A stretch of 10,960 nucleotides of DNA from positions 1-10,960 of the forward strand of contig JANXTD010000435.1 of NCBI GenBank assembly GCA_025352585.1, in the 5' to 3' direction. Both the position numbers and the translations under genes were made by a program. The notes beneath the pieces are model-generated. The model saw only the letters and a list, made by a program, of their open reading frames with translations, was not told where the DNA came from and ran no database searches. The stretch comes from Fimbriiglobus sp. Lineage in GTDB: Bacteria; Planctomycetota; Planctomycetia; Gemmatales; Gemmataceae. How positions within the stretch are numbered: the first letter of the stretch is position 1; every line of letters starts with the position of its first letter. Shown here in pieces: positions 954-10,311 of this stretch.

Positions 954-1727
954 TTAACGCGTCCACTTCAACCGCGATGACCGCTGAGGCGGCGGCAACT
1001 CTTCTCCACCCCCCGACGGCAACTCCTGCGGCGGCAACCCACCCAGCGGCGGCGCAACGGTCGGCGTCAGCAAGCCGCCGGGGCGACTGCCGGTTAGTAC
1101 GCGGACGGTCACGTCCTTGTCGGCCTCGAAACTTTGCCCGTCATTCGACGTGAACCGCACGACGATGCGTAGGCGGTCGGTGCCGGGCAGCCTGTCCCAC
1201 TGCAACGGCACGAAGTAGCCGCTCGACAGCAGCCCGCTCTTCCACGCCCGCCGCAGTTGGTCCGGCGTCACGTTCCACTGGCCGATCTGTGTTTTTAGTC
1301 CCTGCGGACTGATCTCGTAAGCGGCAATCACCGCCTGGCCCGGCACCTTGACGGCGGTGCCGTCGTCGTCGCGCGGGACGATGTCGACCATCAGCGACTC
1401 GTCGCCCGGCTTGCCGTCCTCGTCGACGCCGCCGGTGCCACTGCCGAGGGCGATTTCCTTCAACGGCATCGTCGGCGCGGCCCCTGTCGGTGGGGTGCCG
1501 CCGCCGTGCTGGGCGTAGCCGTCCCACGCCGGTTGCCGCTGGTAGGTGAGGTTCAACTGTCGCTGGTGCTGGACTTCGCCGCGGAGTTCGAGGATTTCAC
1601 GCTCGCGGGTGCGGAGTTCGGCTTCGAGCAGGTCGTAACTCTTGTCCTTGCCGACAAGTCCGCCCGACTTGCAGCCGACGCATGCCAGGAGTAGCAACGC
1701 CAAAACGCGGACACCCCGGCCGGTCAT
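954..1727 (-). CDS. Coiled-coil lipoprotein, planctomycete hypothetical
   Basis: A 257-residue protein of unknown function. The N-terminus is a short basic segment, a hydrophobic run at about residues 8-15, and two cysteines (C16, C19). LLAC16 is a usable lipobox and C19 is the alternative, so the product is probably a lipoprotein. A charged heptad-like helix follows (about 30-64, rich in E, L, R), suggesting a coiled coil. Next come a Gly/Pro linker (75-110), a compact beta-rich region (about 110-212, including Q-W-D and R-I-V-V-R-F stretches) and a Pro/Gly-rich tail. I chose the ATG at 1727 because it gives a normal lipoprotein signal; the ATG at 1772 would add 15 residues. Neither has a good ribosome-binding site. 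It lies 71 bases (26 with the longer start) after the clpP2 stop on the same strand and may be the last gene of that transcript. Confidence 0.7.
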   Translation of the reverse strand: MTGRGVRVLALLLLACVGCKSGGLVGKDKSYDLLEAELRTREREILELRGEVQHQRQLNLTYQRQPAWDGYAQHGGGTPPTGAAPTMPLKEIALGSGTGGVDEDGKPGDESLMVDIVPRDDDGTAVKVPGQAVIAAYEISPQGLKTQIGQWNVTPDQLRRAWKSGLLSSGYFVPLQWDRLPGTDRLRIVVRFTSNDGQSFEADKDVTVRVLTGSRPGGLLTPTVAPPLGGLPPQELPSGGGEELPPPQRSSRLKWTR

Positions 1728-1798
1728 CCGGGGGGGCGTCCGCGTCGGGGGTTGCGTGACAAGCGTCGGCATTCCGTTGCCGCGTCGCGGGGGCGTGG

Positions 1799-2404
1799 CT
1801 AGCTCTGCTTGCCGACGCCGTCCGCGATGCGCTCCAGCACGCCGTCGATGAGGCCGTAGTCGCGGGCCTCCTCGGACGACATGAAGTTGTCGCGGTCGGT
1901 GTCCTTCTCGACCTGTTCGAGAGTCTTACCGGTGTGCCGCTTGATGATCTCGTTGAGCTTCTTCTTGGTCTTCAAGAATTCCTTGACGTGAATCTTGATC
2001 TCGGTCGCGTTGCCCTCCATGCCGGCGAGCGGCTGGTGGATCATGATCCGCGCGTTCGGCAGCGCGAACCGCTTGCCGGCGGCCCCGGCTTGGAGCAACA
2101 GCGCCCCCATGCTCGCGGCCATGCCGACACAGTAGGTCGCCACCGGACAGGTGATGAACTGCATGGTGTCGTAGATGCCGAGGCCCGCGGAGACCGAGCC
2201 GCCGGGGCTGTTGATGTACATGTGGATGTCGGCCTTCGGGTCTTGCGAGTGCAAGAGCAGAAGTTGCGCGACGATGGCGTTGGCCATCTCGTCCTGCACC
2301 ACCCCTTGAAGGAAGATGATGCGGTCCTTGAGCAGGCGCGAGTAGATGTCGTACACCCGCTCGTCGCGGCCGTTGCTCTCAATCACGTAGGGAATCGACG
2401 GCAT
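1799..2404 (-). CDS. clpP: ATP-dependent Clp protease proteolytic subunit ClpP (copy 2)
   Basis: A 201-residue ClpP, the serine peptidase subunit that forms a double heptameric barrel and degrades unfolded substrates fed by ClpX or ClpA/ClpC in the cytoplasm. The catalytic triad is complete: Ser98 in [11 protein letters not shown], His123 in MIHQP, Asp172 in DRDNF. The oxyanion and substrate-binding loop [10 protein letters not shown] (65-74) is intact. The N-terminus ([13 protein letters not shown]) matches canonical ClpP and the overall length is normal, with little or no propeptide. The start is supported by AGGA (2412-2415) 7 bases upstream of the ATG. It lies 143 bases downstream of clpP copy 1 on the same strand. 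The two proteins share the core motifs but differ at the termini, so they are paralogues and not a recent exact duplication. No clpX or tig is visible nearby. Confidence 0.97.
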
Positions 2405-2547
2405 GTGCGTGTCCTGGTTCGGGGCGTGCCGTCGCTCGTCAATGTTATCGGGCGGCGGCCGGCAGTGGGGTGAGGGGCAGCGGGGGCGGCGGCCGGAGTC
2501 AACGTCCGGCGCGGCAACGTGTGCGGGTTGGCGAACTTAGACCACAC

Positions 2548-3297
2548 TTACACGAGGAGGGGGCCGGTCGGCAGGGCACCCGGCGTGCCCTTGGGAGCCT
2601 TGATCAGCACGTCATCGACGAGGCCGAATTCCTTCGCCTCGGTGGCCGTGAAGTAGTTGTCGCGGGCGCTCGCCTTGTCGATCTCCTCGACCGTCCGGCC
2701 GCAGTGCTTCGCCAGGATCTCGTTCAGCCGGACGTGCTCCTTCATCATCTCGTTGGCCTGGATCTCGATGTCCGAGATTTGCCCGCCGACCTGGCCCGAC
2801 GGCTGGTGGATCATGATCTTGGCGTTGGGCAAGGCGTAGCGCTTGCCCTTGGTGCCCGCCGCGAGCAGCACCGCGGCCATACTGGCCGCGAAGCCCATGC
2901 AGTAGGTGTTGACGGGGCACTCCAGGAACTGCATGGTGTCGTACAGGGCCAGGCCCGCCGACACGGAGCCGCCGGGGCTGTTGATGTAAAGGTGAATGTC
3001 GGCCGTCTTGTTCTCGGTGACGAGGTACAGCATCCGCTGGATCGTGTAGTTCACCAGGAAGTCGGTGATGACGCCGTTGGTGCCGTTGTCCGGGGAGCTG
3101 CCCAGGAAAATGATGCGGTTCTCCATGAGCAAGTCGGAAAGCGTCATCGTGCGCTGGCGGGCGTAGTTGCCGCCGCGCTGCATCGTGGTGGCCATCACGG
3201 GGGCCAAGGGGCCGAAGTTCGACATGGCCATCGGGTGGAAGCCGGCCGCGAACTCGGAACCGTCGCCCTCGGGCGTCGGGAACATGGGCGGAATCAT
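2548..3297 (-). CDS. clpP: ATP-dependent Clp protease proteolytic subunit ClpP (copy 1, N-terminally extended)
   Basis: A 249-residue ClpP paralogue with an intact triad: Ser139 in GFAASMAAVLL, His164 in MIHQP, Asp213 in ARDNY. The loop [10 protein letters not shown] is at 106-115. It starts with about 46 residues that have no counterpart in copy 2, rich in Met, Phe and Pro (Met at 1, 5, 23, 25, 35, 39). This could be a propeptide removed on assembly or an altered axial gate. After the handle region the C-terminus ends in a Gly/Pro-rich tail. The start is secure: AGGAG lies 6 bases upstream of the ATG at 3297. The reading frame stays open far upstream, but that stretch is the shadow of the GAF gene. 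With copy 2 it could form a mixed ClpP1P2 barrel as known in other bacteria with two ClpPs; that is inference. Confidence 0.96.
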   Translation of the reverse strand: MIPPMFPTPEGDGSEFAAGFHPMAMSNFGPLAPVMATTMQRGGNYARQRTMTLSDLLMENRIIFLGSSPDNGTNGVITDFLVNYTIQRMLYLVTENKTADIHLYINSPGGSVSAGLALYDTMQFLECPVNTYCMGFAASMAAVLLAAGTKGKRYALPNAKIMIHQPSGQVGGQISDIEIQANEMMKEHVRLNEILAKHCGRTVEEIDKASARDNYFTATEAKEFGLVDDVLIKAPKGTPGALPTGPLLV

Positions 3298-3302
3298 CGG
3301 TG

Positions 3303-3308
3303 GCTCCT
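3303..3308 (-). promoter_or_regulatory. Strong ribosome-binding site deciding the clpP1 start
   Basis: On the minus strand the sequence reads CAGGAGCCACCG then ATG (3297-3295). The AGGAG core has good spacing and selects this ATG over the roughly 155 extra codons that remain open upstream in the same frame. Confidence 0.7.
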
Positions 3309-3400
3309 GTGCGGGTGAACGTCGAAGATACTCTACGGTAGCCGTCAACGGCGCGCAGGGGCAAAAGCAGGCGGCCGACTTCGCGGGCGGGCACGGCAGG

Positions 3401-4012
3401 TCAGAGGCGGGCGAGCAGGCCGGCGAGGGTTTCCATGAGCGCGACGCCCTCGGCGTCGGCCGGCACGGGCGTGAGGTCGAAGTGGCACAGCGAGCCGAAG
3501 GTGTGGCCGTCGCGGTCGAAGACCGGCACGCCGCAGTACGCCTTGACCTGGCCCAGCGCCGTCCGGCCGGCGGTCGCGTTCTCGGGGGCGTCCTCGACGA
3601 CGAACGGCACGCCGCCGTCGCGGACGTAGACGCAGTAGCTCGCCTCGACGGGGTAGTCGTCGCCGGCCTCGACGCTGGGGTTGTCGCGGTCGTAGAAGTA
3701 CAGGCCGCGGGCGAGCGACCTGTCGAAGCGGTACAGCGCCGTGAAGCGGTAGCCCGAGGCACGGTTCAACTCGATGAGCGCGGCGCGGACGCCGGCCGCG
3801 AGCAGAGTCGCGTGGAGGTCCGTGGCGTGGGCGGTAGGGTTGACGGGGGTTAATCCTTCCGAGGCGAGTTCTGGCCGGGCGATACGATTGTAGACGCGTT
3901 GAACGGGCTTGGCGAGGGGCGACCGGTTCGGCCTCGCGCCGTTCCCCGCCTTCCCGCCCCCGCCAAGGCGGTACGGCCGGAACTGGCACCCGGCGACGGG
4001 GTTGAATATCAT
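3401..4012 (-). CDS. GAF-domain protein
   Basis: The C-terminal 135 residues form a GAF domain, a fold that binds small ligands or serves as a sensor module. Visible signatures are YRFTALYRFD (88-97), an SYCVYVRDGGVPFV stretch (125-138), AYCGVPVFDRDG (158-169) and GSLCHFDLTP (173-182). No kinase, cyclase or DNA-binding domain is attached, so it is a stand-alone sensor or a partner of another protein. The start is doubtful. The ATG at 4012 has no ribosome-binding site and gives about 60 low-complexity residues before the domain, and the ATG at 4075 is worse because it overlaps the divergent NRPS. Inside this stretch lie a TACAAT hexamer (3887-3892) and GGAAGGA (3854-3860), but no ATG, GTG or TTG follows in frame until within the domain. 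It may be read with clpP1, 103 bases downstream. Confidence 0.7.
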   Translation of the reverse strand: MIFNPVAGCQFRPYRLGGGGKAGNGARPNRSPLAKPVQRVYNRIARPELASEGLTPVNPTAHATDLHATLLAAGVRAALIELNRASGYRFTALYRFDRSLARGLYFYDRDNPSVEAGDDYPVEASYCVYVRDGGVPFVVEDAPENATAGRTALGQVKAYCGVPVFDRDGHTFGSLCHFDLTPVPADAEGVALMETLAGLLARL

Positions 4013-4054
4013 GACGCGTGCAGTTTCGTCGGTCCCCCAGCGACTCCCTCTCCC

Positions 4055-7000
4055 ATGCAGCAGTTGCCAACGCACAACCCGGCCCCGGCCTCCGCGCGCC
4101 GGCCCGGTTCACCCTGGGCGGCCCCGGCCGGCCGCGCGGAGGAGCGGGCCGTGGCACCGGCCGCCCCCGTCCGCCGGCTGCACCAGTTCTTCGAGCGCGC
4201 CTGCGACGAGCACCCGTCGAACCTCGCCGTCGTCTGCGGCCCGGACCGCCTCACCTACGCCGACCTCGACTCGCGGGCGAACCGCCTGGCGCACCGCCTC
4301 GCCCGGCTCGGCGTCCGGCCCGGCGACCGCGTCGGCCTGCTGATGGAGCGGTCGGTCCACACCTACGTCTCGCTGCTCGCGGTCCTCAAGGCCGGGGCCG
4401 CGTTCGTGCCGCTCGACCCGTCGTCCCCGCACGAGCGCGTGACGTTCATTGCCACCGACGCGGAACTGGCCCTGCTCCTGACCACGTCCGACCTCGCGGC
4501 CGTCGCGGCGGCCCGGTGCCCGTCGCTGGCCCTCGACGCGGAGGCCGCCGCCATCGCCGCGGAGCCGGCGGGCCGCCCCGCGCTCTCGGACGAGGGCGAT
4601 TCGCTCTGCTACGTCATCTACACCTCCGGCACCACCGGCCGGCCGAAGGGCGTCGCCGTCAACCACTCGAGCGCGTGCAACTTCGTCGCCTCGTGCGCGC
4701 CGATCTACGGCGTTACCGCCGCCGACCGCGTCTACCAGGGGATGACGCTCGCCTTCGACTTCTCGGTCGAGGAGGTCTGGCCGGCGTTCCGCTGCGGGGC
4801 GACGGTCGTGGCCGGGCCGAACGACCACCGCAAATTCGGCAGCGGGCTGACCGACTTCCTGATCGAGCAGGGCGTCACGGTGCTCGCCTGCGTGCCGACG
4901 CTGCTGGCCACGCTCGACCGCGACGTGCCGACGCTGCGGACGCTGCTCGTCGGCGGCGAGGCGTGCCCCGCGGACCTGGTCACCCGCTGGGCGCGGCCCG
5001 GCCGCGTGATGCTCAATACCTACGGCCCGACGGAGACGACGGTCACCGCGACGTGGTGCGAGTTGCTGCCCGGCCGGCCGGTGACGATCGGCCGCCCGCT
5101 CCCGACTTACACCGCCCACATCCTCGACGCCTCGCTGCGGCCGGTGCCGCCCGGCGTGCCCGGCGAGGTCTGCGTCGGCGGGCCGGGCGTCGCCGTCGGC
5201 TACGTCAACCGGCCGGAACTGACGGCCGAGAAGTTCGTCGCGGACCCGTTCTCCGACCGGCCCGGTGCCCGCCTGTACCGCACCGGCGACCTCGGCGTCC
5301 TGACCCCCGCCGGCGAGATCGAGTACCGCGGCCGCATCGACACGCAGGTGAAGATCCGCGGCTACCGCGTCGAGTTGGGCGAGGTCGAGGCCGTGCTGCT
5401 CGAGGCCGGCCCCGTCGTGAGCGCCGTCGTCGCGGTCGTCACTGGCGGCGGCGGCGCGGACGAACTGGCGGCCTACGTGGTGACGCGGCCCGGCACCGAC
5501 TTCGCCGCGCTGAGGCGGCAGCTCCACGACGCCCTGCGGCAGCGGCTGCCGTCGTACATGGTGCCGGCCTACGTCGAGGCGATCGACGCGGTGCCGATGC
5601 TGCCGAGCCAGAAGGCGGACCGGTCGCGGCTGCCGAAGCCGGCGGGGCCGCGGCTCGCGGCCGGGGGCGGCGGCGAGGGGGTGCCGCCGGCGACGCCGCT
5701 GGAGCACCAGGTCGCGGCGGCGTGGGCGGTGGCCTTCGGCCACGCGGTCGGCTGCGTCGAGGCGAACTTCTTCCTCGACTACGGCGGCCACTCGCTGCTC
5801 GCCGCCCGCGTGGTCTCCGCGCTGCGGTCGCTGCCGGAGTTGAGCCGCCTCGGCCTCGCCGACCTGTACTCGCATCCGACGATTCGCGGCCTGGCGGCCC
5901 TGGCGGCCCCCGCCGCGGCCGCGCCGGCCCGGCCCGCCACGCCGGCGGCCCGTCGCCGCGGCCCGCTCCTGGCCACGATTGCCCAGACCGCGTGGCTGCT
6001 CGCCGGGTTGGTGCTGGGCGGCTCGGCCCTGTACCTCGCGCTGTTCGAGGCGGTGCCCGCGCTGACCGGCGGCCTCGGCCCGGTCGGGTTCGTGCTCGCG
6101 GTGCCGCTGCTCTCGGCGCTCGGCACCTGCGGGTACGGCGTCGGCTCGGTGGCGTTCGCCGTCGCGCTGAAGTGGGTGCTGATCGGCCGCTACCGGCCGC
6201 GGCGCGAGCCGGTGTGGGGGGGCTTCTACGTCCGCAACTGGGCCGTCCACCAGGCCGCCCGCCTCGTCCCGTGGCGGCTGCTGGAGGGGACGGTCTTTCA
6301 AAGCGCGGTCTTGCGCGCCCTGGGGGCGCGGGTCGGCCGACGCGTCCACGTCCACCGCGGCGTGGACCTCACCCACGGCGGCTGGGACCTGCTCGAACTC
6401 GGCGACGACGTGACGCTGAGCCGGGACGCCACCGTCCGTCTCGTCGATTACGAAGACGGCCAGGTCGTGGTCGGGTCGGTCGCCCTCGGCAGCGGCTGCG
6501 TCCTCGAACCCCGGTCCGGCGTCGGGCCGGGCACCGCGATGGGGCCTGACAGCCGGCTGACTTCCCACGCGTACCTCGAGCCGGGCGGCCGGGTGCCGCC
6601 GGGCGAGAGTTGGTCGGGCGTCCCGGCCCGCCCCGCCGGTGCCGCGCCGGGGCCGCCGCCGCTGCCGGTTGGTAGCCGGGAGCTGTCGGCGGGGTGGTAC
6701 GGGGTCGTGCTGCTGTCGTCCCGGCTGTTCTTCGCCGCGTTCGGCGTCGTCCCGCTCGCGGCGTTGGCCCTCGCCTGCTCGTGGGCGTGGGGCGTTGACA
6801 CCGCCACGGCCGCCGAGTGGGTGCTGCACCCGTCGGTGGAGCCGGGGGCGGCCTTCGCCTCCCTGAGCCTCGTGGTGCTGCTGGTGCCGGCCCTGCTGCT
6901 TTGGCGGTGCGCGTCGATGCGGCTCCTGGGGCCGGTCCGCGAGGGCGTGATCCCGCGCTGGAGCTACGCCTACGCCCGCGTGCAACTGAAGTCCGACACC

Positions 7001-8092
7001 CTCGAGTGGGCGAACGACTGGCTCGACGGCACGGTGTTCTGGCCGGTCTGGCTCCGCGGGGCCGGGATGACGGTCGGCCGCTGGAGCGAGATCAGCCGGC
7101 TCCACGACACTGTCCCCGAACTGACCGCGATCGGGGCCGGCTCGTTCCTCGCGGGCGGCGTCTACCTCGGCTCGCCGGCCGTCCACCGCGGCACGGTGAC
7201 GCTGGCGCGGGTGGCGCTCGGCGACGCGGTCTTCGTCGGGAATTACGCCGTCGTCGCGGCCGGGCAGTCGATCCCCGACGGCGTGCTGGTCGGCGTCGGC
7301 ACCGTCGCCGACGACGCGCTCATGCGGCCCGGCACGGCGTGGTTCGGGGTGCCGCCGTTCGAGCTGCCCCGCCGCGAGGTCGTGGCGGCCGACGTCGGCC
7401 TGACGTTCCGGCCGTCCTGGTACCGCATCGCGAACCGCCTCTTCTGGGAGTGCCTGCGGTTCGCCCTGCCGCTCGGCCCGGCGGCCCTGGCCCTCGCCTG
7501 GCTCGCGCTGCTGGGGCTGGCGGCCGACGCGCTGCCGCTCCCCGTGGTGGCGTTCGCCGTCGTTCCGGCCCTGGACCTGGCGTTCCTGGCCGGGCTGTGC
7601 GGGCTGGCGCTCGCGGCGAAGTGGTCCCTGCTCGGCCGGGTCCGGCCGGGCACCCACGCCTTGTGGTCGTCGTGGTGCTGCCGGTGGGACTTCAACTACA
7701 CCGCCACCCACGCGCTGGCCGTCGACGCGCTACGGGCCTTGGAGGGGACCGTCTGGCTGAACTGGTACCTGCGGCGGCTGGGCGTGCGGGTCGGCCGCAA
7801 CGTCGCCCTGTTCGACGTGTCTTCGTTCTGCACCGACCCGGACATGCTCGACATCCGGGCCGAGGCGACGGTGAACGGCCTGTACCAGGCGCACACCTTC
7901 GAGGACCGGGTGCTCAAGACCGGCCCCATCGTGATCGGCGACCGCGCCACGGTCGGCACCGGGGCGATCCTGCTGTACGAGACGGCCGTGGGCGACGGCA
8001 CGCGGGTCGCGGCCCACAGCGTGGTGATGAAGGGCGAGCGCCTGGGGCCGGGCCAGACCCACGCCGGCAGCCCCACGCGGCGGGTGTTGTGA
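4055..8092 (+). CDS. Pls/PosA-family single-module NRPS (poly(amino acid) synthetase-like)
   Basis: A 1345-residue membrane-bound enzyme with the order A-T-(2TM-LbH)x3, the layout of epsilon-poly-L-lysine synthetase. The adenylation domain (about 35-525) has core A3 TSGTTGRPKG (190-199), A4 FDFSVEE (234-240), A5 NTYGPTETT (321-329) and A10 Lys520. Asp235 should bind the amino group and Lys520 the adenylate. The carrier domain (about 545-615) holds the phosphopantetheine site Ser580 in DYGGHSL. Membrane segments lie near 643-664, 677-705, 892-912, 932-950, 1136-1157 and 1164-1187. Each pair is followed by a hexapeptide-type beta-helix domain opening with a GTV...LR..G..VGR motif; these replace ordinary condensation domains and in Pls join monomers. 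There is no thioesterase. The ATG at 4055 lacks a ribosome-binding site; the GTG at 4151 has AGGAG 6 bases upstream and is a serious alternative. The stop overlaps the next gene. Product identity is unproven. Confidence 0.9.
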   Translation: MQQLPTHNPAPASARRPGSPWAAPAGRAEERAVAPAAPVRRLHQFFERACDEHPSNLAVVCGPDRLTYADLDSRANRLAHRLARLGVRPGDRVGLLMERSVHTYVSLLAVLKAGAAFVPLDPSSPHERVTFIATDAELALLLTTSDLAAVAAARCPSLALDAEAAAIAAEPAGRPALSDEGDSLCYVIYTSGTTGRPKGVAVNHSSACNFVASCAPIYGVTAADRVYQGMTLAFDFSVEEVWPAFRCGATVVAGPNDHRKFGSGLTDFLIEQGVTVLACVPTLLATLDRDVPTLRTLLVGGEACPADLVTRWARPGRVMLNTYGPTETTVTATWCELLPGRPVTIGRPLPTYTAHILDASLRPVPPGVPGEVCVGGPGVAVGYVNRPELTAEKFVADPFSDRPGARLYRTGDLGVLTPAGEIEYRGRIDTQVKIRGYRVELGEVEAVLLEAGPVVSAVVAVVTGGGGADELAAYVVTRPGTDFAALRRQLHDALRQRLPSYMVPAYVEAIDAVPMLPSQKADRSRLPKPAGPRLAAGGGGEGVPPATPLEHQVAAAWAVAFGHAVGCVEANFFLDYGGHSLLAARVVSALRSLPELSRLGLADLYSHPTIRGLAALAAPAAAAPARPATPAARRRGPLLATIAQTAWLLAGLVLGGSALYLALFEAVPALTGGLGPVGFVLAVPLLSALGTCGYGVGSVAFAVALKWVLIGRYRPRREPVWGGFYVRNWAVHQAARLVPWRLLEGTVFQSAVLRALGARVGRRVHVHRGVDLTHGGWDLLELGDDVTLSRDATVRLVDYEDGQVVVGSVALGSGCVLEPRSGVGPGTAMGPDSRLTSHAYLEPGGRVPPGESWSGVPARPAGAAPGPPPLPVGSRELSAGWYGVVLLSSRLFFAAFGVVPLAALALACSWAWGVDTATAAEWVLHPSVEPGAAFASLSLVVLLVPALLLWRCASMRLLGPVREGVIPRWSYAYARVQLKSDTLEWANDWLDGTVFWPVWLRGAGMTVGRWSEISRLHDTVPELTAIGAGSFLAGGVYLGSPAVHRGTVTLARVALGDAVFVGNYAVVAAGQSIPDGVLVGVGTVADDALMRPGTAWFGVPPFELPRREVVAADVGLTFRPSWYRIANRLFWECLRFALPLGPAALALAWLALLGLAADALPLPVVAFAVVPALDLAFLAGLCGLALAAKWSLLGRVRPGTHALWSSWCCRWDFNYTATHALAVDALRALEGTVWLNWYLRRLGVRVGRNVALFDVSSFCTDPDMLDIRAEATVNGLYQAHTFEDRVLKTGPIVIGDRATVGTGAILLYETAVGDGTRVAAHSVVMKGERLGPGQTHAGSPTRRVL
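4140..4153 (+). promoter_or_regulatory. AGGAG plus GTG: alternative start of the NRPS
   Basis: AGGAG at 4140-4144 is followed 6 bases later by an in-frame GTG (4151-4153). The shorter protein would begin just before the conserved A-domain N-terminus (RLHQFFERACDEHP), losing only 32 Ala/Pro-rich residues. This is better translational evidence than exists for the ATG at 4055. Confidence 0.45.
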
Positions 8093-8526
8093 GCCGCCCC
8101 GCCGCCGGCTCCTCGCCCCGCCCCCTCGAAGGCGGCGGCCGGGGCGGTGCCAAACCGCGCGACTACTTCCGACGGCGACTCCGCAGCTTCGGCCACGCCT
8201 TCCGGGGCGGCCGCACCCTCGTCGCCACGCAGCCGAACGCGCGGGTCCACGCCGCGGCGACGGTCGCGGTCACGGCACTGGGCCTCGCGCTGGGGATCGA
8301 TCGCCTGGAGTGGGTCGCTCTCGCCGTGGCGATGGCGTTGGTCTGGCTGGCCGAGGCGCTCAACACGGCGGTCGAGTTGCTGGCCGACGAGGTGACGCTG
8401 GAGCGGCGTGTGCGCATCGGGCAGGCCAAAGACGTGGCGGCGTTCGGCGTGTTGGCGGCCGCGATCGGTGCGGCCGCCGTGGGGCTACTCGTCTTCGCCC
8501 CACGCCTGTTCGACTCCGGGCGCTGA
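8089..8526 (+). CDS. dgkA: Diacylglycerol kinase / undecaprenol kinase (DgkA family)
   Basis: A 145-residue small integral-membrane lipid kinase that would phosphorylate diacylglycerol or undecaprenol with ATP. The family signature E-A-L-N-T-A-V-E-L-L-A-D is present with Glu89, Asn92, Glu96 and Asp100, followed by a K-D-x-A-A helix. Hydrophobic stretches at about 58-70, 74-90 and 120-139 give the expected three membrane helices, and the basic segment before them (FRRRLRSF) is typical. The first ~35 residues are a Gly/Pro/Arg-rich extension. Translation starts at GTG 8089, which overlaps the TGA of the NRPS (GTGA, 8089-8092), so the two are almost certainly co-translated. It converges on infC with 16 bases between the stops. 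Whether the substrate is diacylglycerol (as in Gram-negatives) or undecaprenol (as in Gram-positives) cannot be read from the sequence. Confidence 0.88.
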   Translation: MSRPAAGSSPRPLEGGGRGGAKPRDYFRRRLRSFGHAFRGGRTLVATQPNARVHAAATVAVTALGLALGIDRLEWVALAVAMALVWLAEALNTAVELLADEVTLERRVRIGQAKDVAAFGVLAAAIGAAAVGLLVFAPRLFDSGR

Positions 8527-8542
8527 CGCCTCCGGCTGCCGG

Positions 8543-9082
8543 TTACTTGTGGCCCTTCGGCGCGAGCAACGCGGACATCTGCTTGCCCTCCATCTGGGCC
8601 GCCTTCTCGATTTTCGAGCAGTCGAGCAGCTTGGTCAGCATGTCTTCGATGATGCGGCGGCCTTCCTCGATGTGCTGCATCTCGCGGCCGCGGAACTGCA
8701 CCTTGATGAGGACTTTGTCGCCCTCTTCGAGGAAGCGGCGGGCCTGGTTCACCTTGGTGTCCACGTCGTGGACGCCCGTTTTCGGGCGGACGCGGAGTTC
8801 CTTGAGCTTCTGCTGGTGCGTCTTCGCGCCCTGCTTCTTCGACTGGGCGTACTTGTGCTTGCCGTAGTCGATGATCTTGCAGACCGGCGGGCGCTCGGTG
8901 GCGGAGACCTCGACGAGGTCCATGCCGAGTTCGCGGGCCATCTCCATCGCCTGCATGGTCGGCACAATACCGTGCTGCTCGCCCTCGGCCCCGATCAGGC
9001 GGATCGGGCTGATGCGGATCTGGTCATTCATGCGGGGGCCGGTCGGCGGACGCGGCGGGCCATTGCGGTCGAACGGGGGGAT
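8543..9082 (-). CDS. infC: Translation initiation factor IF-3, probable ATC start
   Basis: IF-3 binds the 30S subunit, blocks premature 50S joining and proofreads start codons. From ATC at 9082-9080 the protein is 179 residues, almost the same as E. coli IF-3 (180). The N-domain (about 18-88) contains NDQIR, GIVP, DLVEVS and PPVCKIIDYGKHKY. The C-domain (about 95-179) contains KELRVRP, RRFLEEGDK, FRGREM, EGKQM and LAPK. The ATC lies 7 bases after a strong AAGGAG. The only in-frame ATG nearby (9031) has no ribosome-binding site and would remove 17 residues. E. coli infC uses AUU and autoregulates through IF-3's rejection of non-standard codons, so the same control is likely here. The gene is followed by the opposing kinase gene, not by rpmI and rplT. 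Confidence 0.96.
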   Translation of the reverse strand: MPPFDRNGPPRPPTGPRMNDQIRISPIRLIGAEGEQHGIVPTMQAMEMARELGMDLVEVSATERPPVCKIIDYGKHKYAQSKKQGAKTHQQKLKELRVRPKTGVHDVDTKVNQARRFLEEGDKVLIKVQFRGREMQHIEEGRRIIEDMLTKLLDCSKIEKAAQMEGKQMSALLAPKGHK

Positions 9083-9095
9083 AGACAGTCTCCTT
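9080..9095 (-). promoter_or_regulatory. infC: Shine-Dalgarno AAGGAG and ATC initiation codon of infC
   Basis: Reading the minus strand, AAGGAG (9095-9090) is followed by 7 bases and then ATC (9082-9080). This is optimal spacing to a codon that is not a normal start. The same frame has CTG only one base after the AGGAG, too close to be used. Together with the protein length this picks ATC. Confidence 0.75.
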
Positions 9096-9366
9096 TCGGG
9101 GTCACGAAACGGGTCGGGCCGGACGACACCGCCCGACAGTCCCAGGACACACTCTACCCGGCCAGAGGTTCGCGGGACATCGAGCGGGCCTGTCTGCACC
9201 CTTCCTTAACATAACATCCATAACTCCCCTCACCCCCCCCGTCAACGCCGGTCGGCCAAACCCCGGCGGAATTTTCCCACCCGATTCCTCGTCCCGTCGA
9301 CCCCGAGGCGGCACCGCACTTGCAACTCGGCGACCGTCCCCCCACGATTTCCCACCCGGAGACGAC
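9083..9366. other. Divergent intergenic region: infC leader and upstream region of the SRPBCC gene
   Basis: No gene is seen here. On the infC side the leader contains a perfect 7-bp stem (GTCGGGC 9113-9119 with GCCCGAC 9131-9137, 11-base loop). An AT-rich island (about 9203-9226) is the most likely site of the infC promoter, though no good -35/-10 pair was found. A run of eight C lies at 9233-9240. On the plus-strand side, GGAAT (9268-9272) and CGTC (9290-9293), 17 bases apart, resemble an ECF sigma promoter. GGAG at 9358-9361 is the ribosome-binding site of the following gene. Confidence 0.4.
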
Positions 9367-10131
9367 ATGGCAACCACACTTTTGGCCACCGCCGCGAAGT
9401 CGGTCGGCGGGCCGGGTTCGAGCCTCACCCACGCCGTCGAGGCGCTGCCGAGTACCCCCACCAACCTCAGCAGCCCGGAGCGCTGGGTGTCGCTCGTCGC
9501 CGGCGGGGCGGTCGCCCTGTTCGGCCTGACCGAGAAGCACCCGTCGGTCCTGACGACGGCGCTGGGCGGCTACCTGATGTACCGCGGCCTCAGCGGCAAC
9601 TGCCCCGCCTACCAGGCGCTCAACATCAACACCGCCCACTCGACTGCCCCGAGCACTGTCGTCGCCGCCGGGCACGGCACCCGCGTCGAGGCGACCGTCA
9701 CCGTCAACAAAACGACGCTGGAGACCTACGACTTCTGGCGCGACTTCGAGCAACTGCCGCGCTTCATGGTCCACCTGATCGACGTGGAGACGACCAACGA
9801 CGGCCAGTCGCACTGGGTCGCCAAGGGGCCGCTGGGGCTGCGGGTCGAGTGGGACGCCAAGATCATCCGCGACGAGCCGGGCAAGGCGATCGCCTGGCAG
9901 TCGTTGCCGGGGGCCGACGTCGACAACGCCGGCTCGGTCCACTTCCGCGCGGTCCAGGCCGGCACCGAAGTCCGCGTCAACTTGAAGTACGACCCGCCGG
10001 GCGGCCAACTCGGCACCGCGGTGGCGAAGCTCTTCGGCGAGAACCCGCAGCGGCAGGTCCAAGAAGACCTGCTTCGTTTCAAGAAGCTGATCGAGACCAG
10101 CGGCATCCCGTCGAGAATCGTCCACGCTTGA
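9367..10131 (+). CDS. DUF2892-like membrane segment fused to SRPBCC (polyketide cyclase-like) domain
   Basis: A 254-residue protein in two parts. Residues 33-88 resemble the YgaP-type inner-membrane domain (DUF2892): NLSSPERW, a hydrophobic segment (about 41-54), a second one (about 61-75), then GNCPAYQALNI. Residues about 105-245 look like an SRPBCC (START/Bet v 1 fold) domain with RVEATVTVNK, YDFWRDFEQLPRFM, a WDAKIIRDEPGKAIAW strand-turn-strand and a C-terminal amphipathic helix ending in RFKKLIET. Such domains bind hydrophobic ligands; no enzyme activity can be assigned. The start is supported by GGAG 5 bases upstream. It is the first of three genes on this strand, with only 27 bases before the next. 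Domain calls are from recognisable patterns; the cellular role is unknown. Confidence 0.85.
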   Translation: MATTLLATAAKSVGGPGSSLTHAVEALPSTPTNLSSPERWVSLVAGGAVALFGLTEKHPSVLTTALGGYLMYRGLSGNCPAYQALNINTAHSTAPSTVVAAGHGTRVEATVTVNKTTLETYDFWRDFEQLPRFMVHLIDVETTNDGQSHWVAKGPLGLRVEWDAKIIRDEPGKAIAWQSLPGADVDNAGSVHFRAVQAGTEVRVNLKYDPPGGQLGTAVAKLFGENPQRQVQEDLLRFKKLIETSGIPSRIVHA

Positions 10132-10158
10132 CCCACTCCCCTGACACGTGAGAACGCC

Positions 10159-10311
10159 ATGAAGAAGCCCGAGAAACCGGCCGACGCCCCCGCCAAGAAG
10201 TTGCCCAAGGCGACGGTCCCGGAGCCGACCGAAGGCGGGCCGGAGGACGAGGCCGACGCTTCGGAAGAATTGCCGACGCCGGTCAAGCCGAAAAAGCCTG
10301 ACAAGAAGTGA
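10159..10311 (+). CDS. 50-residue Lys/Pro/acidic peptide, hypothetical
   Basis: A short frame from ATG 10159 to TGA 10309-10311, beginning MKKPEKPADAPAKKLPKATV. It has 11 Lys, 11 Pro, 7 Glu and 4 Asp, giving no net charge. The acidic residues cluster in the middle (22-37) and the lysines at both ends. There are no aromatic residues, cysteines or membrane segment, so it should be disordered. The upstream signal is weak (GTGAGA). It lies 27 bases after the SRPBCC gene and 97 before the next gene, in the same direction, and is probably co-transcribed. Without a homologue search it could be a chance frame, but its strong low-complexity pattern and tight placement favour a real gene. Confidence 0.55.
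   Translation: MKKPEKPADAPAKKLPKATVPEPTEGGPEDEADASEELPTPVKPKKPDKK

Follow-up and report, generated by a model that had tools for sequence, protein, structure and literature searches.

The window, by which we mean the whole 10,960-nucleotide stretch of Fimbriiglobus sp. DNA analysed here (contig JANXTD010000435.1 of assembly GCA_025352585.1), carries a gene for a synthetase in which an adenylation (A) domain and a carrier (T) domain are followed by a long terminal domain of membrane helices and left-handed beta-helices (Table 1). A sequence-only reading of the same DNA had described this protein as one A domain, one carrier, six membrane segments and three beta-helices in 1345 residues, and Pfam, hydropathy and AlphaFold2 agree on this layout. 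Pfam places AMP-binding at residues 46-383 (E-value of 3.6e-86), AMP-binding_C at 443-520, PP-binding at 553-616 and Hexapep at 1292-1324; the scan gives neither a condensation nor a thioesterase match at an E-value of 0.001. The key residues it had listed, Asp235, Lys520 and Ser580, are intact. The hydrophobic pairs of a Kyte-Doolittle scan coincide with the three helix pairs of the table, although this simple scan also gave two further signals inside the soluble A domain.

Table 1. Features of the window, with residue numbers of the synthetase where applicable.
Feature	Position	Strand	Details
Hybrid A-T-terminal-domain synthetase	4055..8092	+	1345 aa, ATG to TGA, no internal stop
Adenylation domain, lineage A	4190..5614	+	residues 46-520; Pfam, pocket, 7/7 diagnostic A-T columns in A state
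Carrier domain	5711..5902	+	residues 553-616; Ser580 for phosphopantetheine; Pfam and residue check
Junction interval	5876..5977	+	residues 608-641; diagnostic columns and sliding identity
Membrane helix pair 1	5960..6184	+	residues 636-710; AlphaFold2 model and hydropathy
Left-handed beta-helix 1	6323..6643	+	approx. residues 757-863; AlphaFold2 model and structural matches
Membrane helix pair 2	6695..6928	+	residues 881-958; AlphaFold2 model and hydropathy
Left-handed beta-helix 2	7067..7366	+	approx. residues 1005-1104; AlphaFold2 model and structural matches
Membrane helix pair 3	7454..7633	+	residues 1134-1193; AlphaFold2 model and hydropathy
Left-handed beta-helix 3	7784..8083	+	approx. 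residues 1244-1343; AlphaFold2 model and Hexapep Pfam
QAHTFEDRVLK, proposed catalytic centre	7886..7918	+	residues 1278-1288; conservation in both lineages
Prokaryotic diacylglycerol kinase gene	8089..8526	+	GTG start overlaps synthetase stop; PF01219, 1.6e-25
GAF-domain gene, divergent	3401..4075	-	start codon uncertain; PF01590
infC (translation initiation factor IF-3), convergent	8543..9199	-	Pfam

An AlphaFold2 model of residues 625-1345, computed from an 84-row alignment, repeats a helix pair and a beta-helix three times (predicted local distance difference test score of 93.1, predicted template modelling score of 0.92) and predicts for the terminal domain the left-handed beta-helix fold of the hexapeptide acyltransferases. 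Its beta-helices 1 and 2 match solved members of that family, enzymes that transfer single groups (serine acetyltransferase, LpxA and sugar N-acetyltransferases). Eight other clusters, 65-86% identical over 97-100% of the length, have the same layout, which is therefore not due to chance. One A domain and one T domain without a condensation or thioesterase partner, three helix pairs with beta-helices and an Asp/Glu pocket are features that the protein shares with cationic homopoly(amino acid) synthetases in the broad sense. The nearest named relatives of the synthetase are Gemmata and Gemmataceae proteins, which bears out the planctomycete-type host of the sequence-only reading. Databases already contain such synthetases from planctomycetes, with Gemmataceae and Singulisphaera entries named as Pls/PosA family. 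These classical relatives are annotated; the new part is the hybrid architecture described below.

The two halves of the synthetase have different ancestries. We built hidden Markov models (HMMs) from 24 classical Pls/PosA rows (lineage A) and from 15 Gemmata-, Acidobacteria- and Streptomyces-type rows (lineage B). In the synthetase of the window, P0001 in our tables of relatives, the A-T part scores 855 bits with the lineage A model vs 458 with that of lineage B, whereas the terminal part scores 426 vs 1012 bits. Pairwise identities show the same division. P0027 and P0033 share 72% identity with the synthetase in the A-T part but only 28-29% in the terminal part; with the Gemmata-type P0010 and P0018, identity is 40-42% in the A-T part and 60-61% in the terminal part. 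Sliding identity along the protein switches near residue 630. Among the columns that are fixed differently in the two lineages (at least 90% in each, hybrids not used), P0001 has the A state in 7 of 7 A-T columns, and the B state in 17 and the A state in none of 19 terminal columns. The last A-state column is 608 and the first B-state column is 641. Hence, loader and carrier were exchanged together, and the breakpoint falls either at the carrier's C-terminal edge or in the linker that precedes membrane helix pair 1.

Curated models separate the lineages as well. TIGR02353, one of the checks put forward by the sequence-only reading, does match the synthetase over model positions 27-694 of 695, but its 357.4 bits are below the curated cut-off of 423.1. 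The scores of the 15 rows scanned are bimodal, with 6 A/A rows (loader lineage written first, terminal lineage second) at 609-645 bits vs 5 B/B rows at 343-398 and 4 hybrids at 357-392 (P0001 357, P0003 362, P0009 392, P0050 359). The A-domain model TIGR01733 gives 428-455 bits in A loaders and hybrids and 366-374 in B. As the B rows scanned stay below the TIGR02353 cut-off, they miss the Pls/PosA name in the NCBI pipeline, and named B rows are called "amino acid adenylation domain-containing protein" or "non-ribosomal peptide synthetase". Lineage B occurs in Acidobacteria, Planctomycetes and Actinobacteria; its named rows come from Gemmata, Blastocatellia, Horticoccus and Kutzneria.

Trees of 50 rows, seven of them hybrids, were computed by a quick method with the Shimodaira-Hasegawa-like approximate likelihood ratio test (SH-aLRT) as the only support measure. 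In the A-T tree, the hybrids whose pocket begins with DFE lie inside lineage A with P0027, P0033, P0078 and P0084 (SH-aLRT of 97), and four of the five form a clade (99). In the terminal tree, all five form a clade (100) inside lineage B beside the Gemmata-type P0010, P0015 and P0018 (97). The sequence-only reading had proposed a tree with characterised Pls and poly-diaminobutyrate/diaminopropionate synthetases; in our trees the A-T part groups with Pls/PosA, and the terminal domain does not. In approximately unbiased (AU) tests, the terminal data reject a clade that joins the DFE hybrids to the sisters of their A-T parts (p = 2e-47), and the A-T data reject one that joins them to the sisters of their terminal domains (p = 1e-57) as well as a grouping of the hybrids with lineage B (p = 2.5e-4). 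The terminal domains of P0050 and P0121 join actinobacterial B ones (98), away from the DFE hybrids, which means that at least two swaps took place. A single clade of all seven hybrids is rejected by the terminal data (AU p = 2.8e-4).

The first set of relatives, with 319 rows classified, contains 108 A/A, 199 B/B, 12 A/B and no B/A rows, and the second, 93 rows from a query favouring the reverse combination, contains 91 A/A and 2 B/B rows and no hybrids. Together these make 199 A/A, 201 B/B, 12 A/B and no B/A among 412 rows, so that a B loader with an A terminal domain is missing from this set despite the query built to favour it. The samples consist of the best 120 proteins of each search, which favour hybrids or reverse hybrids. 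The counts are of rows rather than species, a few P proteins occur again among the loci, and the numbers should not be taken for frequencies in nature. The hybrid rows are P0001-P0009 (pocket DFE), P0050 and P0121 (DAESIGTVIK) and the fragment P0135, in which the first pocket positions are missing. The counts do not include 12 loci that lack a full-length relative in a single frame (L037-L046, L114, L116), the window's own gene (L017), the disrupted frame of the Embleya locus L010, the A-domain-only loci L135-L155 and one family match on contig C111 of G028 that has no locus; L114, L116 and L010 look A/A-like in tblastn where they are covered.

The A-domain pocket was read from an alignment of 120 homologues as DFEALGTVTK (D235, F236, E239, A278, L298, G300, T322, V330, T331, K520), with the Asp of position 1 and the Glu of position 3 both present. 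According to PMC10522769, the alpha-amine is held by the Asp of the PosA pocket DMEHNGTVSK and the side-chain amine by its Glu, with Thr304 and Ser313 within hydrogen-bond range of the latter, and chain length is set at the Met position, which is Ala in lysine enzymes, Met in the ornithine enzyme and Phe in poly-diaminopropionate (poly-Dap) and poly-diaminobutyrate (poly-Dab) synthetases. Position 2 of our pocket is Phe236, as in the last group. Because Phe236 shortens the pocket, we infer a short diamino acid, Dab, Dap or ornithine (Orn) rather than Lys. The match to epsilon-poly-lysine synthetase proposed by the sequence-only reading fails at this position, where Phe stands in place of Ala; its broader statement that the enzyme is Pls-like holds for the A-T half, which groups with Pls/PosA and has a diamino-acid-type pocket, but not for the terminal half. 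A plain epsilon-poly-lysine synthetase, with which neither the pocket nor the terminal lineage agrees, was dropped as a reading.

The terminal domains of the two lineages share 52 columns conserved to at least 95% in both, 9 of them in repeat 1, 20 in repeat 2 and 23 in repeat 3. The densest run lies in beta-helix 3 (Q1278, H1280, F1282, E1283, D1284, R1285 and K1288), with D1263, Y1308, M1325, K1326 and E1328 also conserved near it in sequence. H1280 is present in all 199 B/B rows and in each of the 106 A/A rows (out of 108) that have a letter at this position. Around the run the lineages differ in a fixed manner, with LQTHLFEDR.MK in A and FQAHTFEDR.LK in B, and with EFDL vs DPDM at 1261-1264. 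Because several such differences surround the conserved site, the lineage B terminal domain may differ from that of lineage A in acceptor or linkage.

Hexapeptide acyltransferases use a histidine at the subunit interface as a base and pass an acyl thioester to an amine or a hydroxyl. By analogy, the three fused beta-helices of the synthetase, standing on three membrane hairpins, could act like an acyltransferase trimer in one chain. The A domain would adenylate one small cationic amino acid, with Asp235 binding the alpha-amine and Glu239, Thr322 and Thr331 the side-chain amine, and load it onto the carrier at Ser580. From there, the terminal domain would take the aminoacyl thioester and couple it to an amine of the growing chain, His1280, a likely base judging by its conservation, aiding the attack of that amine, and growth would repeat at the membrane without a thioesterase. 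Most likely, a short cationic amino acid is activated, loaded and polymerised at the membrane, the polymerisation being suggested by homology to the Pls, PosA and PDAP synthetases. As PMC7179176 cites it, work by Hamano (2014) reportedly found that the linkers between the membrane helices of Pls regulate chain length; residues of the Pls tandem domains are said to have been mutated by Kito (2013), a reference of the same paper. According to PMC10522769, the terminal domain had no experimental structure.

On balance, we consider it probable that the synthetase is a natural hybrid with an A-T part from the classical Pls/PosA lineage and a terminal domain from its sister lineage, that it loads a cationic amino acid and that it polymerises this amino acid at the membrane, the estimate being for the three parts together. 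The gene is real and intact, and its interest comes from this natural exchange between loader and polymeriser, not from plain Pls homology. The hybrid shows that the two are separable and exchangeable at one linker, so that the contribution of each half to monomer, linkage and chain length becomes testable.

Several findings weigh against parts of this explanation. By sequence, several ordinary nonribosomal peptide synthetase A domains in the PDB match our A domain at least as well as Pls (7wew) does. In the A-T tree, P0009 stands apart from the other DFE hybrids on an open fork within the P0027/P0033 set, so that the DFE hybrids may not have a single origin. In the terminal tree, a topology with the DFE hybrids and all A rows as one side is not rejected (AU p = 0.177), which we read as the root of lineage B being left unplaced on its long stem by the terminal data. 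The pocket Glu is missing in 9 of the 199 B/B rows (DSA in 5, DSD in 3, DSS in 1; L018, L019 and L025 are among them), and the substrate of such loaders may be something other than a diamino acid. Finally, an A domain from Bdellovibrionales with the commonest B pocket (DSECYGGVTK, found in 52 of the 120 rows of the pocket alignment) weakly activated L-Arg (PMC10522769), which has no amine suited to isopeptides. This protein, OFZ39577, perhaps belongs to lineage B, to judge from its published pocket code, and would then be the only assayed member that we met.

The same caution applies to the monomer. In locus L005 of Streptomyces NBC_01527, genes for a diaminobutyrate transaminase and an aspartate kinase follow a synthetase gene whose pocket, DFECLSAVTK, is of the same class, and L057 (DFECLSVVTK) is a second pairing with a diaminobutyrate transaminase, but both pockets differ from DFEALGTVTK at its G-T positions. 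In the window's own genome, a draft of 964 contigs that is 87% complete, the SbnB model has no match, and the dat and SbnA models match only below cut-off. Among 42 named genomes that encode a DFE enzyme (from 80 loci), dat is over cut-off in 28 and SbnB in 17, and 12 have neither, so that Dap or Dab cannot safely be read from DFE..GTVTK. A firm assignment to either was dropped for these reasons, and the monomer may be Dab, Dap, Orn or some unusual analogue.

More tentatively, lineage B could be a large overlooked class in which the terminal domain sets the amine used and the chain length, so that the cationic polymer of the hybrid would differ in linkage or length from any known poly-Lys, poly-Orn, poly-Dab or poly-Dap, with residues 609-640 as a natural exchange point. 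If this were true, evolution would have placed diamino-acid loaders before the B machinery at least twice. About half of the relatives in our query-steered sample (the 201 B/B rows) belong to this lineage, which the scores given above put below the naming cut-off.

It is somewhat more doubtful that we are dealing with an ordinary Pls/PosA-type synthetase, in which the terminal lineage is functionally neutral and the product is a known cationic homopolymer (gamma-poly-Dab, beta-poly-Dap or delta-poly-Orn). The classical-class pocket would fit this, as would the fact that both terminal lineages keep Q1278, H1280, E1283, D1284 and R1285. However, a long branch separates lineages A and B in the terminal tree, the conserved site carries fixed differences and the terminal domain as a whole has 19 such columns, and no Dap/Dab supply gene exceeds the cut-off in the genome of the window.

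We think it quite unlikely that the enzyme is no polymerase at all and that the B terminal domain moves a single aminoacyl group to a membrane lipid, a glycan or another envelope acceptor, with the overlapping diacylglycerol kinase gene serving the same envelope process. The beta-helices do match acyltransferases of single groups, the weak activation of Arg would suit such a reaction, and the kinase gene does overlap the synthetase stop codon. However, the whole terminal domain is homologous to proven polymerases, the hybrids recruited A-T units of the polymer lineage (9 rows with DFE, 2 with DAE), and the pairing of synthetase and kinase is known from the window alone. An assembly chimera or a decaying fusion is very improbable even in a draft of so many contigs and with no full-length match in the congener G007 (assembly 87% complete), since the 1345 codons are intact with D235, K520 and S580 in place, GC and third-position GC are even across the junction (75.4/97.4% vs 74.9/96.6%) and the eight further clusters share the hybrid layout.

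Among characterised systems, the synthetase resembles PosA, the delta-poly-L-ornithine synthetase of Acinetobacter baumannii, in its A-T-terminal layout, in the Asp, Glu, Gly, Thr, Val and Lys common to the two pockets and in the arrangement of the published PosA model, where three beta-helices lie over six membrane helices (PMC10522769). It differs from PosA at the chain-length position, where Phe replaces Met, and in its terminal domain, which is of the other lineage and falls below the TIGR02353 cut-off; a Sphingomonas row (DMEHNGTVTK), used as a stand-in for PosA, is 48% identical in the A-T part and 32% in the terminal part. It shares domain order, size, carrier and terminal repeats with the annotated Pls of L008 (1319 aa), but that enzyme (DAESIGTVVK, Ala at the chain-length position) is only 39% and 29% identical in the two parts. 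Phe at the chain-length position, which PMC10522769 gives for poly-Dap/poly-Dab synthetases, is shared with these actinobacterial enzymes (PMC4668381) and with L005, assigned to this group by context. The A-T part of L005 is 54% identical, whereas its terminal domain is classical (29%), and the window lacks the Dab-making genes that accompany it. With lineage B synthetases the likeness is confined to the terminal domain, which is 50-61% identical to the Gemmataceae rows L018-L033; their A-T parts are 38-43% identical and have pockets such as DSECYGGVTK or DSECHGDVVK. No title or abstract opening among the literature matches listed concerns planctomycete polymer synthetases or hybrids of the two lineages, and the string "planctomyc" is absent from the main text of PMC10522769.

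The window and G007 encode ClpP proteins of 100% identity, and this match together with the nearest named synthetase relatives places the host, we infer, in Gemmataceae. In 95 genomes of this family, 19 other full-length loci were classified, of which 16 are B/B (L018-L033), 3 are A/A (L034-L036) and none is a hybrid; elsewhere in Gemmataceae, the B terminal domain is in most cases paired with a loader of the DSE pocket type. Two separate contigs of G007 carry the flanks, one matching window 982-3826 on the left (85% identity) and the other 8513-10268 on the right (86%). The left contig continues for 12 kb without synthetase or kinase, and the right contig ends approximately 0.4 kb beyond the break, also without the kinase. 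Hence, the synthetase-kinase segment was gained in the genome of the window, or lost or moved in G007. At its edge, window 8512-8548, across the kinase stop codon, is a short dispersed repeat that matches at least 41 further places in G007; its 25-base core occurs once in the window. In the congener G006 (L174), a classical synthetase (8024-11953) and infC (18114-18668) lie approximately 6 kb apart in the order and orientation of the window, and a synthetase may have occupied this locus already when the swap took place. Window 1799-3288 contains two adjacent ClpP genes on the minus strand, a pair found in most of 20 relatives searched. The genome also has a PF01648 (ACPS/PPTase) gene, with only a possible link to the synthetase carrier.

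Function could not be read from neighbours, since Gemmataceae B loci share neighbours only within small groups and none is recognisably biosynthetic. Fur-like and endonuclease V-like genes, named by eye, lie upstream of the synthetase in six Gemmata-type B loci (e.g. L162 5395-6009, L158 6833-7813). The three classical A/A synthetases of the family (L034-L036 in G028, G051 and G006, the last from the genus of the window) have the pocket DAESIGTVIK, close to that of Streptomyces Pls, and are candidate epsilon-polylysine makers. For the loci L047-L126, clustering of long open reading frames was spoiled by wrong-frame ones in high-GC DNA, and tblastn with named exemplars was used instead. In 44 of these 80 loci, mostly actinobacterial with DFE pockets (e.g. 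L074 13990-15824), a BPL-N-domain gene is found near the synthetase gene, mostly downstream and often together with an HGSNAT-like acetyltransferase-domain gene, as a conserved gene set. An M1 family metallopeptidase gene directly follows lysine-pocket pls-type genes in L008 (6828-8240) and L009 (9918-11249), and in Sphingomonas parapaucimobilis (L006, 9903-10460) a phosphopantetheinyl transferase gene follows a synthetase with the PosA-like pocket DMEHNGTVTK. The 1500-residue P0116 has an extra PF00856 domain, which we take to be a SET domain, in the precomputed Pfam annotation.

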